Virus record (IMG/VR): IMGVR_UViG_3300028920_000041
Span: 56,931 to 120,930 of that record
Reading direction: 5' to 3' (one strand)
DNA: 64,000 nucleotides
Source: a virus
Numbering within the stretch: the stretch's first letter is position 1; every line of letters begins with the position of its first letter. The position numbers were made by a program, and so were the translations under genes. Positions 14,072-57,119 of the stretch are shown here, in pieces. The notes under the pieces are model-generated. The model saw nothing but the letters and a program-made list of their open reading frames with translations. It was not told the DNA's origin and made no database searches.

Positions 14072-15507
14072 CACAACTTGTTGAGGTACAGCCTTTTAAC
14101 TATGCAATCGTTGAAGGGAAGGCTAAGCCTGGAGTCCTTTTGACTCTGGAAGGGACTTTTCAACGGGCTGGTACAAAGAACGCTAACGGTAGGATCTATC
14201 CGTTGCCTCTTTGGAAAAAGTTGATGTCTGATGAAGATGTCAACGAAAGGATCCAAGCCAGAAGGATGCTTGGCCACTTGGACCATCCTTCAAGTGGTGC
14301 GACTTCTCTAAGTTGTGTGTCTCACGTAGTTACAGAGCATAAGCTTCAAAGCGATGGCAGTGTAAAGGGTAAGCTTGAAATACTTGATACACCAATGGGT
14401 CAGATTGCTTCTACACTTGCTAAAGCAGGTGTTCAGTTCGGTGTGTCTTCAAGGGGTGATGGTTCTGTCGAAAGGAAAGGAGATGTAGACGAAGTACAGA
14501 ACGATTATCGACTAGAAACGTATGATCTTGTGTTAAAGCCTTCGACTCCAGGCGCTTACCCTCAGATTGTTGAGTCAGAGGAAAAAGCAAAGGAGAATCT
14601 AGATCTCATCGCACAAGCAGTTGAAGGACTTGTCAATCGCACTAATGAAGTTGATGTGCTATTAGAGTGTCACAAAATAATCAGTGTCCTGGAAGGCTGC
14701 AACGAGCGTCGAGAGCAGATCTTAGCCGAGCTAAAGACAAAGCTTGGTACTGGTCAAGAGGAACAAGAAAAAAGAGAAACTCACGATTCGGAGGGACTAA
14801 AGATGACGGGAACTAATGCTGTTCCGAATGCTCCGACTGCTACGCCACAGCTTACAATTTCTCCTGAGATGAAAGACTATCTCCAGGAATGGGTTGATAA
14901 AGGTGTGGAGGAAGCCGTTGCAGCTAAGAACGAAGAGATTAACGATTTGAACGAAAGGATCGTTGGTCTGGTCAATGAACGAGATGAGCTTGTTTTACGT
15001 ATGGGTGCGGCTGAGCAGTTGATCGAGGAGTTCACTCGTAAGGTCAAATCTCTGAGTGACAATCGCACTACAGACGAAGAGCTTCACGAAAGGTTTGACG
15101 CTTCTGTGTCATTGCTTGATGAAGCGATGTCAAGGTTGCAGGAGCTAGGCGAGACGCAGAGGCGTTTAGCTGCAGCCGAAGAGCTTCTTCAGGCTTCTAT
15201 TTGTCGAGCGCAAGTGGAGTCTGTTGCAGCTAGCATTGAAGAGAAGATAGAAGACCTTGACGAATCAACGCAAGAGACGCTTAGGACGTTGCTTGAGGAC
15301 TGCGAATCTGCCGAGGAAGTAGATAGCAAGTTTTCTCAGCTTGAGAGTCTGATTGAAAGCCAGAGTGATGGTTTTCCGGAGCCTGTTGTCAGGGAACCGC
15401 TGCCATCCAGAACAGGGAATCTGACAGAAGACCAGATCGGTAACGCTCGTTCGAACGGACCTAAAGACTTCATTACCAGTAGGCTTCTTTCGAAGATTGC
15501 TGGTTAA
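14068..15507 (+). CDS. Prohead protease (T4 gp21-type) fused to scaffold/core domain
   Basis: 479 residues from the ATGA-coupled start at 14068. Residues about 10-175 match the gp21/S77 family: GTKNANGRIYP at 35-45, the catalytic-His region MLGHLDHP (His70, His73), VSSRG with nucleophile Ser at 127-128, and a later Asp (YDLV, 153). Residues about 250-450 are long acidic coiled coils, as in scaffold/core proteins. So protease and scaffold are one polypeptide. It would cut itself and head proteins during maturation. An internal start at 14803 probably makes the scaffold alone. The major capsid gene follows. Confidence 0.85.
   Translation: MTQLVEVQPFNYAIVEGKAKPGVLLTLEGTFQRAGTKNANGRIYPLPLWKKLMSDEDVNERIQARRMLGHLDHPSSGATSLSCVSHVVTEHKLQSDGSVKGKLEILDTPMGQIASTLAKAGVQFGVSSRGDGSVERKGDVDEVQNDYRLETYDLVLKPSTPGAYPQIVESEEKAKENLDLIAQAVEGLVNRTNEVDVLLECHKIISVLEGCNERREQILAELKTKLGTGQEEQEKRETHDSEGLKMTGTNAVPNAPTATPQLTISPEMKDYLQEWVDKGVEEAVAAKNEEINDLNERIVGLVNERDELVLRMGAAEQLIEEFTRKVKSLSDNRTTDEELHERFDASVSLLDEAMSRLQELGETQRRLAAAEELLQASICRAQVESVAASIEEKIEDLDESTQETLRTLLEDCESAEEVDSKFSQLESLIESQSDGFPEPVVREPLPSRTGNLTEDQIGNARSNGPKDFITSRLLSKIAG
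14803..15507 (+). CDS. Scaffold protein from internal in-frame start (nested)
   Basis: In frame with the protease, ATG 14803 is preceded by a strong Shine-Dalgarno, GGAGGG at 14790-14795, 7 bases away, and falls at the boundary between the protease and the coiled-coil region. Translation would give a 234-residue acidic coiled-coil protein (MTGTNAVPNAPTATPQ start). The arrangement matches phage lambda C/Nu3, where a scaffold is made in excess from within the protease gene. The site is seen; its use is inferred. Confidence 0.55.
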   Translation: MTGTNAVPNAPTATPQLTISPEMKDYLQEWVDKGVEEAVAAKNEEINDLNERIVGLVNERDELVLRMGAAEQLIEEFTRKVKSLSDNRTTDEELHERFDASVSLLDEAMSRLQELGETQRRLAAAEELLQASICRAQVESVAASIEEKIEDLDESTQETLRTLLEDCESAEEVDSKFSQLESLIESQSDGFPEPVVREPLPSRTGNLTEDQIGNARSNGPKDFITSRLLSKIAG

Positions 15508-15550
15508 GGTCAAAGACGACAACACACAAGTTAAATCAACTTCGGAGGAC

Positions 15551-16972
15551 ATGATGATTATTGGAATTGACGAACACAAGGCAGAGCACAATAAGATGCT
15601 TAGTGTTGGGCACTCTTTGGCCTCGAATTACAACATGACCCTTTACGAGAATGAAAAAGAGGGTCGTAAGATGTCCATGGGGGAGCTTCTGGAAGGCCTC
15701 CCGGAAGATTCTTTGGTTCGTGCTCACACAGCAGTTATGGTTGAAAACACTCGTCGCTATTTCAACTCGCTAGATGAGACAACCAAGCTTGTGAACATCG
15801 GTGATTTCGAAAAGTACGCTTACCCGATGGTTCGGGCGGTGTTCCCGAACCTTGCTGCGCACAACTTGGCTTCTGTACAGCCGATGCTGGGTCCCGTCTC
15901 TTTAGTGTTCTACATGAAGTTCATCTATGGTCTGACCAAAGGATCTGCGGTCGCGGGTACAGACATCATCGAAAACCCGAATCAGAACTATGCTTCTGAG
16001 GATATCGATGAAGAAAACGTCGGTACGGGCACTGGTGTTGCTACTGCTTTTACAGGAAACCTGTCTTACCTTCCGGTGAAGCCTGGTACGGTGAAGTTCA
16101 CAGGCGATGTTAGTGGTGTTCTGCTTGAGGTAACGGACGATGGCAACGGGAACATGATCGGTGATATTGGTGTTGGTACCAATACCATCAATTACGTTAC
16201 CGGCGCTTTCAACTTCGATTTCTCCAGCGCTATCGATAGCGGAGATCCGGTCAATGCTGCTTACAGCTATGACTTGGAAGGTAACGATACCATCCCCGAT
16301 ATTGATATGCAGCTTACTTCGAGTCCGGTTGTTGCCACGACTCGTAAGCTTAGGACTCGGTGGAGCCTTGAGGCTGCGCAAGATCTTAGGAACCTGCATG
16401 GTCTTGAGGCAGAGGTTGAGCAAGTCGCGGCAGTGTCCAATGAGATGAAGTTTGAGATTGACCGCGAAGTGATCGACAACATGGCGGCTATTGCTAACGG
16501 CTCTGTTGCAGCGTTTAGCAAGACACCCCTTACTGGTATCTCGTTCACAGAGCATAAGCTCGGTTTCGTAGACACACTGATTGCTGCCTCTAATGTGATC
16601 TTTGGTGCTACGCAGCGCGCTCTTGGAACGTGGATTATCGCCGGTCTGAATGTCACCAACCTGATCGAGTCCCTTCCGGGCTTTGTCCCCTCGCCACGTC
16701 CAAAGGGAACGAGGGCGGTTTACAAGGCTGGCGTGTTAAATGGCCAGTGGGACATCTGGAAAGATCCAAACTACGGTGTTAACAACTACCTCATGGGGTA
16801 CCAGGGTGATGCAATGTGGGAGGTTGGCTATATCTTCGCTCCTTACATCCTGGCCTACACGACTGCTACGATCATGCTGGATGATTTTGTCGGTCGTAAG
16901 GGTATCTCTTCGCGGTATGGCAAGAAGGCTATTGATGGTAACTTCTACTGCCAGGGCAGTGTAACCGCATAA
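15551..16972 (+). CDS. Major capsid protein (T4 gp23-type) with inserted beta module
   Basis: The start is set at ATG 15551 because GGAGG sits at 15544-15548. 473 residues. Family landmarks: RAVFPNLAAHNLASVQPM, GPVSLVFYMKFIYG, TRKLRTRWSLEAAQDLRNLHG and the C-terminal GYIFAPYILAYTTATIML. Residues about 165-250 are an inserted beta domain (VKPGTVKFTGDVSG, DDGNGNMIGD, NTINYVTGAF) of the same type as the C-terminus of the protein at 19202. The N-terminal about 45 residues may be removed by the prohead protease, as in gp23. Codon use is richer in C and G than neighbours, as expected for a very highly expressed gene. A strong terminator follows. Confidence 0.92.
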   Translation: MMIIGIDEHKAEHNKMLSVGHSLASNYNMTLYENEKEGRKMSMGELLEGLPEDSLVRAHTAVMVENTRRYFNSLDETTKLVNIGDFEKYAYPMVRAVFPNLAAHNLASVQPMLGPVSLVFYMKFIYGLTKGSAVAGTDIIENPNQNYASEDIDEENVGTGTGVATAFTGNLSYLPVKPGTVKFTGDVSGVLLEVTDDGNGNMIGDIGVGTNTINYVTGAFNFDFSSAIDSGDPVNAAYSYDLEGNDTIPDIDMQLTSSPVVATTRKLRTRWSLEAAQDLRNLHGLEAEVEQVAAVSNEMKFEIDREVIDNMAAIANGSVAAFSKTPLTGISFTEHKLGFVDTLIAASNVIFGATQRALGTWIIAGLNVTNLIESLPGFVPSPRPKGTRAVYKAGVLNGQWDIWKDPNYGVNNYLMGYQGDAMWEVGYIFAPYILAYTTATIMLDDFVGRKGISSRYGKKAIDGNFYCQGSVTA

Positions 16973-20503: not shown

Positions 20504-22738
20504 ATGGCGTTCGTCAGTGCTGGAGCTTATGCACGAGAAGTAGATCTTTCTCTGTATGCAGAGACCATTACCTCAACCATTCTTGGGATGGCCCACACGT
20601 TCAACAAGGGTCCTATTGGTACTCCTACTCTTATCACGAATATTGATAGGTTGATTGCCGAGTTTGGGGAACCCATAGATCCAGGCTCTAGCTCTTCAGC
20701 ATGCCAAGGTTGGTTTGCTGCCAGAGAGTATCTCAGAAAAGGTAATAAGCTTTATGTCAATAGGGTTGAGTCTACAGCTACTCCTGCAGCCTATGCAGCA
20801 CAGTCCGTTCGTGGTGTAACGGATCAAACTCTGGCAACAGGTACAGACGGAGCTACTTCTGTTCCAGCAACCAGAACACTAACATCGGCTACCGGGGATT
20901 TTGTAAATGATGGGATTTTGGTAGGCGATGTTTTGGAGGTTGACGAAGGTGGTGCCGATGATGGGTTCTATGTTTTAACTGCGGTTGCTGCTACGGTCCT
21001 AACGATTGACAGAGACTGGCCTACAGGCTCTTTGGCCGATCAAGACTTCACGGTTTGGACAGCAAAGAAAGAGGAAGGTGAAGACGGTGTTACAAGCGCT
21101 CTTGGCGTTCGTACACTAACCTCTGCAGCATCCACGTTCCAGACCAATGGTGTTGCGGCTGGAGATATCCTCAAGATTGCGGATCCCGGTGACACGGGGG
21201 ATAACGGTGTCTATTACATTGCATCGGTTGACAGCGAAACGCAGCTAACGGTTAACAGGGACTGGCAGGAAGGTGGCCTGTCTACGCTTACCTTTACGGT
21301 TTATGGTCCAAACAGCTCCGGAGCAACAGGAAGCACCGCTACAGCCGGTGAGTTTGCCGATACGAACGCCAAGTTCCAAGATCACGGTGTTCAAGCTGGA
21401 GATATCCTCTGGATTAAGGACGCTGTTGATATTGGTGATAATGGCTATTACATGATCACAGGCCTCAAGACAGGCTCTGAAGATACCACGCTAGAGGTTA
21501 ACGAAACAGCGTGGCCTGCAGGATCTCTGACGGGTCTTACCTATGAGGTTTTTCCAGGCTCTGTTACGTATCAAGGTGCAACAAAGGGAACCGCTTTCAG
21601 TGGTCTCAGAATTATCCCTTCTGTTAATGCCAATGACAATACCAAGGTGGACCTTGAGACCAAAAACTCTGCTGGTACATTCAGGCTTGAAAAAGTCTTT
21701 TCCATGGATCGCACTGATGCGGATACGGTGATGTCTTCTGACAGTGCGTATTGGACAGCAACCATAAGGTCTAACCGGTCAGACATCGTTGCAGGGGATA
21801 CATTTACGGTCTCTGGTGGAGATGATGGGTACACAGGGATCGTAGATAGTGACTACATTGGCAACTCTACTTTAGGTACAGGACTCCGAGGCTTTAGCAA
21901 TGCAGAAGCAATTGACGTAAACTTGCTTGTGTGCCCCGGGCAATCGAGCCAGAACGTACAAGATGAGCTAATCAATATCTGTGAGTCAAGAGCAGACTGT
22001 ATGGCGATTGTAGATCCGCCAGATTGGTCTGCAATCGATACAGTCCAAGAGATTTTGAACTTCCACAATGGGACTCTAACGCGCACTACAGCGCTCAACA
22101 CAACCTATGGTGCTTTGTATTGGACTTGGCAGAAAGTTTATGATGAGTACCATGATGTTGATGTGTGGACGGCACCCTCGGGTCACATGGCAGCAGTCTA
22201 TGCCAATAACGATAACGTTCAGGCTCCTTGGTTTGCCCCGGCTGGATTAAAGCGTGGTAAGCTGACTGGATCTACCGATGTTCGTTACTCGCCCAATCAG
22301 GATGACAGAGACGCTCTTTATGGGCCTGGAGCACGGGTCAACCCCATTGTCAACTTCACAGGCTCTGGGATCTATGCTTTTGGTCAGAAAACACTAACCA
22401 CAGCGACTACAGCACTTGATAGGGTCAATGTTCGTCGGATGCTGCTTTATGTGGAAAAGGTCATTGCTACAGCATCTAGACAGCTTGTTTTTGATCCGAA
22501 TGATGATGTACTAGAGAGGGAGTTTAAGCAGCTAGTAGAGCCTGTGCTGGACGATGTTTTGTCCAGGCGCGGGATCGCTGAGTACCTGATAACAACGGCT
22601 ACGACAGATTCAGACAGAGACAACAACAAAGCCGTGTTTAAGATCTTCATCAAACCGATAAAATCAGCCGAGATTATCGAGATAGTCTTTGCTTTAACCT
22701 CGCAAGGGGCAAATTTTTCTGAGCTTATAGCAGCATAG
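20504..22738 (+). CDS. Contractile tail sheath protein with three beta modules inserted in tandem
   Basis: 744 residues. The N-terminus (MAFVSAGAYAREVDLSLYAE, ILGMAHTFNKGPIGTPTLIT, FGEPIDPG, WFAAREYLRKGNKLYVNRV) and C-terminal half (YTWQ-like YWTWQKVYDEYHD, GHMAAVYANNDNVQAPWFAPAG, RRMLLYVEKVI, VLDDVLSRRGIAEYLI) are typical sheath domains that contract to drive the tube. Inserted at residues about 112-350 are three tandem copies of the recurring beta module, each centred on D-(D/N)-G-x-Y with a W-P/Q-x-G ending. They should form extra knobs on the sheath exterior. Confidence 0.9.
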   Translation: MAFVSAGAYAREVDLSLYAETITSTILGMAHTFNKGPIGTPTLITNIDRLIAEFGEPIDPGSSSSACQGWFAAREYLRKGNKLYVNRVESTATPAAYAAQSVRGVTDQTLATGTDGATSVPATRTLTSATGDFVNDGILVGDVLEVDEGGADDGFYVLTAVAATVLTIDRDWPTGSLADQDFTVWTAKKEEGEDGVTSALGVRTLTSAASTFQTNGVAAGDILKIADPGDTGDNGVYYIASVDSETQLTVNRDWQEGGLSTLTFTVYGPNSSGATGSTATAGEFADTNAKFQDHGVQAGDILWIKDAVDIGDNGYYMITGLKTGSEDTTLEVNETAWPAGSLTGLTYEVFPGSVTYQGATKGTAFSGLRIIPSVNANDNTKVDLETKNSAGTFRLEKVFSMDRTDADTVMSSDSAYWTATIRSNRSDIVAGDTFTVSGGDDGYTGIVDSDYIGNSTLGTGLRGFSNAEAIDVNLLVCPGQSSQNVQDELINICESRADCMAIVDPPDWSAIDTVQEILNFHNGTLTRTTALNTTYGALYWTWQKVYDEYHDVDVWTAPSGHMAAVYANNDNVQAPWFAPAGLKRGKLTGSTDVRYSPNQDDRDALYGPGARVNPIVNFTGSGIYAFGQKTLTTATTALDRVNVRRMLLYVEKVIATASRQLVFDPNDDVLEREFKQLVEPVLDDVLSRRGIAEYLITTATTDSDRDNNKAVFKIFIKPIKSAEIIEIVFALTSQGANFSELIAA

Positions 22739-54308: not shown

Positions 54309-57119
54309 ATGGCTTTCAAGACTCGGCTACGCGGTATCTTTGGTTGGTCTTCGAACAAAAGACCAATGTCAAGGCCTACACTCAAAGATATTGCTCTACA
54401 GACACAGCAAGTACAGTCCGCTGCAGATCGCTATCACAGCGAAATGGACTTTTTACACAGAAGACGACAAGACAGATATGATGTCTATGATGCTATGGAT
54501 AACATGTCTGATGTTGCTTCTGTGCTTGATGCTTATGCCGAGGATGCTGTCCAGCTAGATCCAGAGCACAAGAAGTCAGTTTGGGTAACAGCAAAAAAGA
54601 CTAAAACAAAAAAGCTACTAAACTCATTTTTACATGAAACGCTGAACACTGAAGACTATGTAGAGGGTCTGTGCAGAGATGTTGCCAAGATGGGTGATGA
54701 CTTTGCTCTAGTCAAAGCTCAGAGGGGTAAAGGTGTTACGTCTTTAGTCTGGAGAGATCCTAGGGACATTGAAAGAATTGAAAACCTCGAAGGTATCTTG
54801 ATAGGCTTTGAAGAGACAGCTTTACTTGGTTCCTACAGACAAAGAGTCAACTCTGAAAGACAGCAGGGACGAGATGGCTCCAGTGTGAAACCATCCTATG
54901 AGCCATGGGATGTTATCCACTTTAGGATCTTCAAAAAGAAACGACTGCCGAAAGAGAAGAAACCAAACATCTACGGAACGTCTGTACTAGCAGGTTCAGA
55001 GAGAGTAGCGAAGCAAGTTAAGATACTGGACGACTTGCTTATGATTATGAGGCTCACAAGATCTCTAGACAGATATACATACTACGTTGACGTAGGTCGG
55101 TCACCGGTAGAAGAGGAAGTCAATATCTTACGTCGGTGGAAACAAGCGCTTAAAAGAAAGACCTATTTCGACCCTGCAACAGGACAGTTCGACTCCAGGT
55201 TCGATCCCTATGCTTGGTGTATCACAGGAGATACTAAAATATCTCTACTCGACGGCCGTGAAAGGACTGTTGAGCAACTTGTTGAAGAGTATGGAACAGA
55301 TAAATCTTTTTGGGTGTATTCTAGGGACAAAGAAGGCTATGTTGTTCCAGGGAAAGCAAAGTGTGTAGGCAAGACACGACTTGATGCTGAGCTAGTAAAA
55401 GTAACTCTTGATAATGGTCAGTCTGTCAGGTGCACACCGGATCATAGGTGGATGCTCAAAGACGGCTCATACAAGGAAGCAGAGAAACTAACATCAGGGG
55501 ACAGCTTGAGTCCTCTGTATAGATCTGTCAATAGAGAGGGGTATGAAACCTTCCTTCAGAAGGCTAAAAGAGGTGGTAGGTGGGACTGTACCCATATAAT
55601 GGTAGCTGAAGCTATGTATGGAGCAGAGGCTGTAAGGTACAATGATCCTCCCTTAGACTACACAGGGATTAACAATGTACATCATCTAAAAAAACACAAT
55701 AACAATTCCCCTGAATGCTTGGTTCTTATGGGGAAAGCCGAGCATATGGAAGAGCATAGAAGGTTAAGGGAGAATGATCCGGTTGCTCTCGAAGAATTTG
55801 AATGTAAGAGGATAGAAGCGCTAAGGAAATCAGGATATTCTCCAGCTAGAGCTAAAGCAATGCGGGTTAGGTGGGAAGATCCTTGTTTCAAATCTGTGAT
55901 GTCTCAAGCTGTTTCTGAAAGTTGGAATGATGAGAATAGCAGAGCCAATAGAGTAGAAGCTATCTCTTCCAGGAATAAGAGGTTATGGAGAGATCAAGAC
56001 TACAGAGAAATGATGAAGAGAAGCGCTCGAAAGGAGTTGAGAAGAAGATACCTAGAGCTTGTTGAAGAAGCTGTGTCTATGATGGTCAAAGAGGGTTTCG
56101 ATCCTATGACTGAATGGGATATTGCTAGAGACTATCTTATGACTATAGGGTTGCTACCACCAATCACTCCAAAATGGGAGAAAGCTTTAGGGTACATAGA
56201 ACTTGGGGAAGGTATCCTAGGTGATGCTAACCATAAGGTTGATTCTGTTGAATTTTTGAGTGATCGTGAAGATACTTATGATATTACAGTTAAGGACCAC
56301 AACAACTTTGCTTTGACTGCAGGTGTTTTTATTCATAACTCCGAAGACATTTTTTGGTCAGTAAAGGAGAATAGGAATTCACGTGTCGAAGTACAGCAAG
56401 GGATCACAAACATATCAGACATTGTAGATATTGACCACTTCAGAGATAAGTTCTTTGGTTCTTTAAGAGCACCAAAGGCTTATTTCGGATATGACGGTGA
56501 ACATAATTCTAAGGCTTCCTTGTCAAGCCAGTCTTTAAAGTGGTCTAAAGCAGTGACTTCGATACAAAGAGCTGTTAAGCAAGGCTTGACTCGTTTGTGC
56601 CAGATACATTTGGCTTATCTAGGTCTTGACACAAATGCAGATCAATTTGAAGTCCATATGACACCACCTTCTATTGTTGAATTACTGGATAAGCTGGAGG
56701 CCTGGCAGAATGTGGTTGATGTGGCTGAAAGGATGTCAACGCTTGGTGAAACACTGAATCTTGATAAGTATGACTGGACAGTGTACATTCTCGAAAACGT
56801 TATGTGGTTGTCTAAAGACGAAGTTAAAAAGTTTACTAAGAAGATACCGAAAGATGCACCGCAAGAAGAGCCAGACGATCAGCAGCAGAAACCCACAGAG
56901 CCTCCACAGCCATTTGACACACCGTTTACAAAGCCTGGTGGACAGCCACAACCGGCTGATGTAGTTGGCAAGGGTCCGAAAGAGCCAGAGGAAAAACCTC
57001 AAGCACAGCCTGAAGAAGGCTATGGTGCAAATGGTAAAAGCACAGTACAGCTTGCTAGTATGGAAGTGGATAAGTTGCTTTTAGAGATCAAAGATTACAT
57101 GGAAGCTAGAGTTAACTAA
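54309..57119 (+). CDS. Portal protein (T4 gp20-type) interrupted by an HNH intein
   Basis: 936 residues as translated, 562 after splicing. The N-extein (1-303) has SVLDAYAEDAVQLDPEHKKS, EPWDVIHFRIFKKKRLPKEK, RLTRSLDRYTYYVDVG and KTYFDPATGQFDSRFDPYAW. The C-extein (678-936) starts SEDIFWSVKENRNSRVEVQQ and has DIDHFRDKFFGSLRAPKAYF. Both match the gp20 portal family, the ring through which DNA is packaged. The splice junctions (Cys304 and Asn677/Ser678) fall in the conserved 'D-P-x-x-(W/I)-(x)-E-D-(I/F)-F' portal segment. The Pro/Gln-rich tail may be flexible. The portal lies about 37 kb from the capsid genes, unlike T4. Confidence 0.88.
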   Translation: MAFKTRLRGIFGWSSNKRPMSRPTLKDIALQTQQVQSAADRYHSEMDFLHRRRQDRYDVYDAMDNMSDVASVLDAYAEDAVQLDPEHKKSVWVTAKKTKTKKLLNSFLHETLNTEDYVEGLCRDVAKMGDDFALVKAQRGKGVTSLVWRDPRDIERIENLEGILIGFEETALLGSYRQRVNSERQQGRDGSSVKPSYEPWDVIHFRIFKKKRLPKEKKPNIYGTSVLAGSERVAKQVKILDDLLMIMRLTRSLDRYTYYVDVGRSPVEEEVNILRRWKQALKRKTYFDPATGQFDSRFDPYAWCITGDTKISLLDGRERTVEQLVEEYGTDKSFWVYSRDKEGYVVPGKAKCVGKTRLDAELVKVTLDNGQSVRCTPDHRWMLKDGSYKEAEKLTSGDSLSPLYRSVNREGYETFLQKAKRGGRWDCTHIMVAEAMYGAEAVRYNDPPLDYTGINNVHHLKKHNNNSPECLVLMGKAEHMEEHRRLRENDPVALEEFECKRIEALRKSGYSPARAKAMRVRWEDPCFKSVMSQAVSESWNDENSRANRVEAISSRNKRLWRDQDYREMMKRSARKELRRRYLELVEEAVSMMVKEGFDPMTEWDIARDYLMTIGLLPPITPKWEKALGYIELGEGILGDANHKVDSVEFLSDREDTYDITVKDHNNFALTAGVFIHNSEDIFWSVKENRNSRVEVQQGITNISDIVDIDHFRDKFFGSLRAPKAYFGYDGEHNSKASLSSQSLKWSKAVTSIQRAVKQGLTRLCQIHLAYLGLDTNADQFEVHMTPPSIVELLDKLEAWQNVVDVAERMSTLGETLNLDKYDWTVYILENVMWLSKDEVKKFTKKIPKDAPQEEPDDQQQKPTEPPQPFDTPFTKPGGQPQPADVVGKGPKEPEEKPQAQPEEGYGANGKSTVQLASMEVDKLLLEIKDYMEARVN
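55218..56339 (+). mobile_element. Intein with HNH homing endonuclease domain in portal gene
   Basis: 374 residues (304-677 of the precursor). Splice blocks: N-terminal CITGDTKISLLDG; block B TPDHRWMLKDG with its T-x-x-H at 376-379; C-terminal block DTYDITVKDHNNFALTAGVF then IHN before Ser. The HNH-type endonuclease sits in the middle: NNVHHLKKHNNNSPECLVLM followed by EHMEEH (about 457-483). The endonuclease would spread the intein to intein-free portal genes. It looks complete and active by motif. Confidence 0.88.

Follow-up and report, generated by a model that had tools for sequence, protein, structure and literature searches.

The portal gene of an uncultured T4-like phage very probably (we would put it at about 0.9) carries, in the part encoding the clip of a T4-type portal, a class 1 intein that excises itself from the protein and whose HNH homing-endonuclease domain would spread the element. 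Our analysis concerns a window of 64,000 nucleotides (positions 56,931 to 120,930 of IMG/VR record IMGVR_UViG_3300028920_000041) from a virus record of 120.9 kb that is linear and possibly incomplete. Most likely, judging from its sequence and its relatives, the intein splices and has served, in the past or to this day, as a homing element. Self-splicing inserts that bring a DNA-cutting domain of their own are familiar genetic parasites, to which the window adds an insertion site, in the T4-type portal clip adjoining the DNA-entry loop and with natural empty alleles.

An intein interrupting a T4-type portal gene

The interrupted gene and the parts of its insert are as follows (positions in the window):

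54309-57119: open reading frame of 936 aa, stop-free; T4-type portal (gp20 family) interrupted by the intein
54309-55217, + strand: portal N-extein of T4 gp20 type, 303 aa; matches PF07230 over residues 53-298 (E 4e-43)
55218-56339, + strand: class 1, HNH-containing intein, 374 aa; matches PF14890, with boundaries taken from the empty-site alleles L010 and L096
55218-55532, + strand: N-terminal splicing (Hint) half, residues 1-105; TIGR01445 match, pLDDT ~97, Foldseek matches to solved inteins
55530-55775, + strand: HNH endonuclease domain, residues 105-186; phrog_7545 match, with a strand-strand-helix at 152-186
55680-55757, + strand: HNH core, H155-H156, N163, H176 and H180
55776-56228, + strand: helical repeat-like tail, residues 187-337, which varies among the aligned relatives
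56229-56339, + strand: C-terminal splicing half, residues 338-374, ending in His373-Asn374; TIGR01443 match, pLDDT ~97
56340-57116, + strand: portal C-extein, 259 aa, beginning with Ser+1; lies within the two-stretch Portal_T4 match

The intein is in frame within the 936-residue reading frame, from CITGDT at its start to VFIHN at its end, followed by Ser, and holds no stop. Each of the other five frames has 12-47 stops across the same stretch, and none of 500 base shuffles of it stayed open. The Intein_splicing family PF14890 matches residues 311-677 of the reading frame (E about 2.9e-20 to 2.6e-19, above the cut-off), and two further profiles, TIGR01445 (E about 4e-13 to 1.7e-12) and TIGR01443 (E 0.003), match at opposite ends of the intein, above their cut-offs.

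Both boundaries are independently proved by two intein-less relatives that read straight through the junction (marked here by a slash): RFDPYAW/TEDEFW in L010 (IMG/VR 3300035130_000240) and RFDPYAW/SEDEFW in L096 (IMG/VR 3300027917_000131), in both of which the portal protein is continuous. The contig of a third relative, L097 (IMG/VR 3300017971_001616), starts inside an intein and leaves it through AGVFIHN/SEDEFW, at the same insertion codon; the last 36 aa of the window intein and this one are 67% identical. Translation and the empty-site relatives thus show the coordinates (55218-56339) and the length of 374 residues given in a first-pass annotation to be exact to the base, and every residue it had named (Cys1, T-x-x-H, the HNH residues, His-Asn followed by Ser) was found.

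Joined together, the exteins form a protein of 562 residues. The N-extein is 66% identical to the intein-less portal of L010, and the C-extein is 59% identical to that of L097 and 50% to that of L096. Assignment to the T4-type portals (gp20) follows from the Portal_T4 domain PF07230 and from a T4-like neighbourhood that includes a Gp23 major capsid match (E 3e-57) and sheath domains; the Gp23-type capsid and T4-type sheath proteins lie at window positions 15497-16972 and 20504-22738. The phage is T4-like, yet distant from every named phage that we searched. A search of the record found a single copy of the portal gene, so that portal supply should depend on splicing of the intein, if the record is representative.

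Residues expected of an active intein are in place. In a family alignment of 36 intein relatives, Cys1, Thr73 and His76 each recur in 90% or more of the sequences, and His373 and Asn374 are invariant; the window intein has all of them, with CITGDT as block A, T73-P-D-H76 as block B (the T-x-x-H motif of class 1 inteins) and a Ser after the terminal Asn. AlphaFold, run on the 36-sequence alignment, predicts a Hint fold with both splicing halves at pLDDT ~97 (a run from 4 sequences gave pLDDT 48 and was discarded in its favor), and Foldseek matches the model to the PI-PfuI, NrdJ-1, Mtu RecA and Ssp DnaE inteins (E 4e-7 to 3e-6). Splicing would proceed along the usual class 1 route, by an acyl shift at Cys1, transesterification onto Ser+1, cyclisation of Asn374 and a last acyl shift that would leave a Trp-Ser peptide bond in a 562-residue portal.

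Between the splicing halves, His155, His156, Asn163, His176 and His180 are present, every one of them shared by no fewer than 90% of the 36 relatives. The HNH domain is mostly predicted at pLDDT 75-92, matches the phrog_7545 HNH endonuclease (E 1e-5) and, through the family profile, the homing endonuclease I-HmuI (PDB 1u3e, E 1.5e-4), which is homologous over the HNH domain and, unlike the window element, has no splicing domain. I-HmuI is encoded in an intron. A phmmer search of the bare HNH stretch against the PDB returned only a zinc finger, which we judged a chance match. Five helices are predicted in the tail (188-204, 209-219, 222-236, 239-250 and 260-291; pLDDT mostly 50-70), where no Pfam DNA-binding domain matched; this tail is presumed to be the DNA-recognition part. 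By analogy with the known family, the HNH domain, together with the tail, would cleave portal alleles that lack the intein, close to the junction, and the element would spread when such a break is repaired from the intein-bearing copy.

The first-pass annotation had described a full-length HNH intein, and this description is supported, the residues for splicing and those of the HNH core being all intact. Some features nevertheless suggest that cutting activity could be lost: the loop from the His-His pair to the Asn has one residue fewer than most relatives have there, PF01844 (Pfam HNH) had zero matches in a scan of the whole record, the window intein included, and HNH_3 matched five of seven family members, the window copy not among them. 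An element that still splices, with an endonuclease that is dead or free of selection, would descend vertically with the portal gene and persist because precise loss is rare. We regard this as less likely than not, and less probable than an element shaped by homing: all five residues of the HNH motif are intact, and two other intact members, the terminase (TerL) intein of the same phage and L146, have an equally short loop.

The insertion site and its distribution among relatives

Aligned with T4 gp20, the junction comes at about 330/331, inside the clip domain (279-358, limits from PMC4493910), which docks the terminase and the neck, and a few residues ahead of R338 of the inner clip loop that faces the DNA. 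Before splicing, the insert of ~42 kDa should block the docking face of the portal.

The claim that this site is highly conserved holds for some measures and not for others. In an alignment of 72 T4-type portals, conservation of the 7 residues centered on the junction ranks only at the 57th percentile; the position immediately before the junction is variously M, L, I, V or W, and the one immediately after it T, M, L, D or S. These portals were chosen for reading frames without an intein signature and are uninformative on intein frequency. Conserved sequence adjoins the junction: the motif ED-x-[FY]-x-P-V-R begins one residue 3' of it, and conservation four residues downstream is at the 92nd percentile of the 72 portals. 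The DNA fares better within the close clade, where identity over the 30 bp at the junction reaches the 84th-94th percentile, and it is this that counts for an endonuclease. Many distant portals have Met, Leu or Asp at the +1 position. These residues would not permit splicing unless the +1 codon arrived with the insert.

Four close relatives, including the window, can be compared at the site: two are filled (the window and L097) and two are empty (L010 and L096). Such a patchy distribution fits a homing element, and this difference among close relatives also counts against purely vertical descent with a dead endonuclease. The intein of L097 shares the gene, the insertion codon and the intein lineage with that of the window; it has a shorter helical tail, and the contig covers no more than its final 88 residues.

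Other observations fit recent transfer less well. The two alleles that carry the intein show no sign of a co-conversion tract, and their flanks are highly diverged: over the first 60 bp to the right of the site, identity of the window is 58% to L097, 67% to L010 and 70% to L096, and this high divergence weakens the test. Divergence from L097 is alike for intein and extein, which, with the missing tract, is also what an inactive, vertically inherited endonuclease would give. The codon usage of the intein is as near to that of the phage as the codon usage of the exteins is. With no signal in the flanks, fitting codon usage and like divergence, an old acquisition followed by losses explains the data as well as transfer does. 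The proposal of the first-pass annotation that the site favors homing between phages thus finds support in the presence of the intein in two of four close relatives, and none in the flanks or in the divergence of intein and extein.

Among the sites that we compared, the insertion point in the clip domain appears to be new, the portal inteins of the C1 mycobacteriophages being known to us by description only. No description of this site was found in the literature searched.

The terminase intein and the environmental family

A family search of the 120.9-kb record gave two inteins only, the one in the portal and a second in the terminase gene, which lies outside the window (G000:C1:23480-26797):

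G000:C1:24191-25435 (L004:5191-6435): second HNH intein, 415 aa, in the terminase large subunit at Walker B

Its junctions read FGGL/C...VHN/CDEAD, and the two inteins are 43% identical over the first 198 residues. This resemblance could be taken to mean that one is a recent copy of the other made inside this genome, which we find highly improbable. A tree of 45 inteins places the two apart: the portal intein joins L134 (IMG/VR 3300045131_003274) and site 3 of LR756508 (95/81), and the terminase intein falls elsewhere. A tree in which the two are forced together is worse by 26 log-likelihood units, though the AU test does not reject it (p 0.19); recent copying between them is left unsupported.

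Several known elements resemble the window intein in part. L134 and LR756508, its nearest neighbors in the tree, are portal inteins of the same HNH family (L134 is 47% identical to it over 289 columns), and differ in their insertion sites, at positions 251/252 and 374/375 of the portal profile as against 315/316 for the window. Bacillus phage SP-15 (KT624200) encodes in ORF SP15_022 a full-length match (1-374, E 5e-26) that is also the best viral Foldseek match and has the same block order, an HNH domain and a repeat-like tail; it is only 28% identical and sits directly ahead of the terminase P-loop, not in a portal. A first tblastn search had suggested it as a portal intein at the same site, a candidate we dropped on finding that the reading frame is a terminase. 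Kelley et al. (2016, PMC5050341) describe portal (PORT) inteins in six mycobacteriophages of subcluster C1, together with many mycobacteriophages whose terminase has an intein. The C1 phages thus share with our phage an intein in the portal gene and, within the same phage group, terminase-like inteins (PMC5050341); none of their portal inteins matched the window intein by sequence, and the likeness is one of description only. Terminase inteins are also described in crAss-like phages (PMC7886860), phage Mic1 (PMC7156551) and Rak2-like phages (PMC5259590).

A pattern search of IMG/VR for close copies of the window intein found none. Three family members, used as queries against IMG/VR, returned 80 relatives, and the 79 newly read loci, a few of them near-copies of one another, were classified with terminase and portal profiles built in this analysis. 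Roughly 41 of the 79 lie in terminase genes and 12 in T4-type portals (together about two thirds), a terminase share that may be biased upward since two of the three query inteins came from terminases. Most terminase inteins occupy one place in the nuclease domain (DHPxGG/C...VHN/SKDvsDAvaG); across L134-L212, HNH inteins pile up at this DHPxGG site in many different phages. Portal insertions, taken from IMG/VR and from huge-phage records, are grouped in a few zones that comprise about a dozen positions, to which the window site is added. Among the matches, the latter (profile 315/316) is common to L097 only; the portal intein of LR756511, considered as a possible same-site case, was excluded as it lies at 105/106.

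That a single phage has inteins in both portal and terminase, each an essential part of the motor, and that most of the environmental relatives found sit in one or other of these genes raises the question of a regulatory function. A regulatory role has been proposed for the terminase inteins of phage Mic1 (PMC7156551), and conditional splicing of the portal intein might, together with that of the Walker B intein, time the assembly of the packaging motor. We consider such a switch very unlikely: presence of the intein among close relatives is patchy, and those that lack it have to package all the same, the selfish model covers the same facts, and no regulatory feature was found. At least as unlikely is a wider version, in which one HNH intein family lives chiefly in phage packaging motors and the Walker B and portal clip inteins delay assembly here until two condition-responsive splicings have taken place. 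Terminase and portal clip are two parts that dock on each other, and with each interrupted, assembly would wait under this version. A splicing element that spreads, or once spread, by homing is the reading that we retain.

What the survey adds is an environmental family of HNH inteins, most of them residing in terminase or portal genes and, among portals, spread over about a dozen sites, and it makes the question of why packaging genes gather inteins countable and testable. It also calls for caution in annotation, portal and terminase, both phage marker genes, being often interrupted.

Further interrupted genes turned up alongside the family. In the 484-kb phage LR756508.1, the portal gene (L008:1027-5187) holds three inteins of 150, 141 and 458 aa, and another intein ends in the reading frame immediately upstream (L008:1-945). 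A portal from IMG/VR 3300035661_000269 (L108:5338-8019) holds two small inteins at positions that are also used in LR756511 and L158. Listeria phage LIS04 (L116, OQ999172.1:32367-32855) has an intein signature adjoining the terminase Walker B motif in a frame with stops; this intein is decayed, split or broken by an intron. Finally, the P-loop of a terminase from IMG/VR 3300037478_000708 (L102:2542-5721) is interrupted by an intein-like insert of a different type (GVGK/GLATSD..VTHN/TT), which PF14890 misses.
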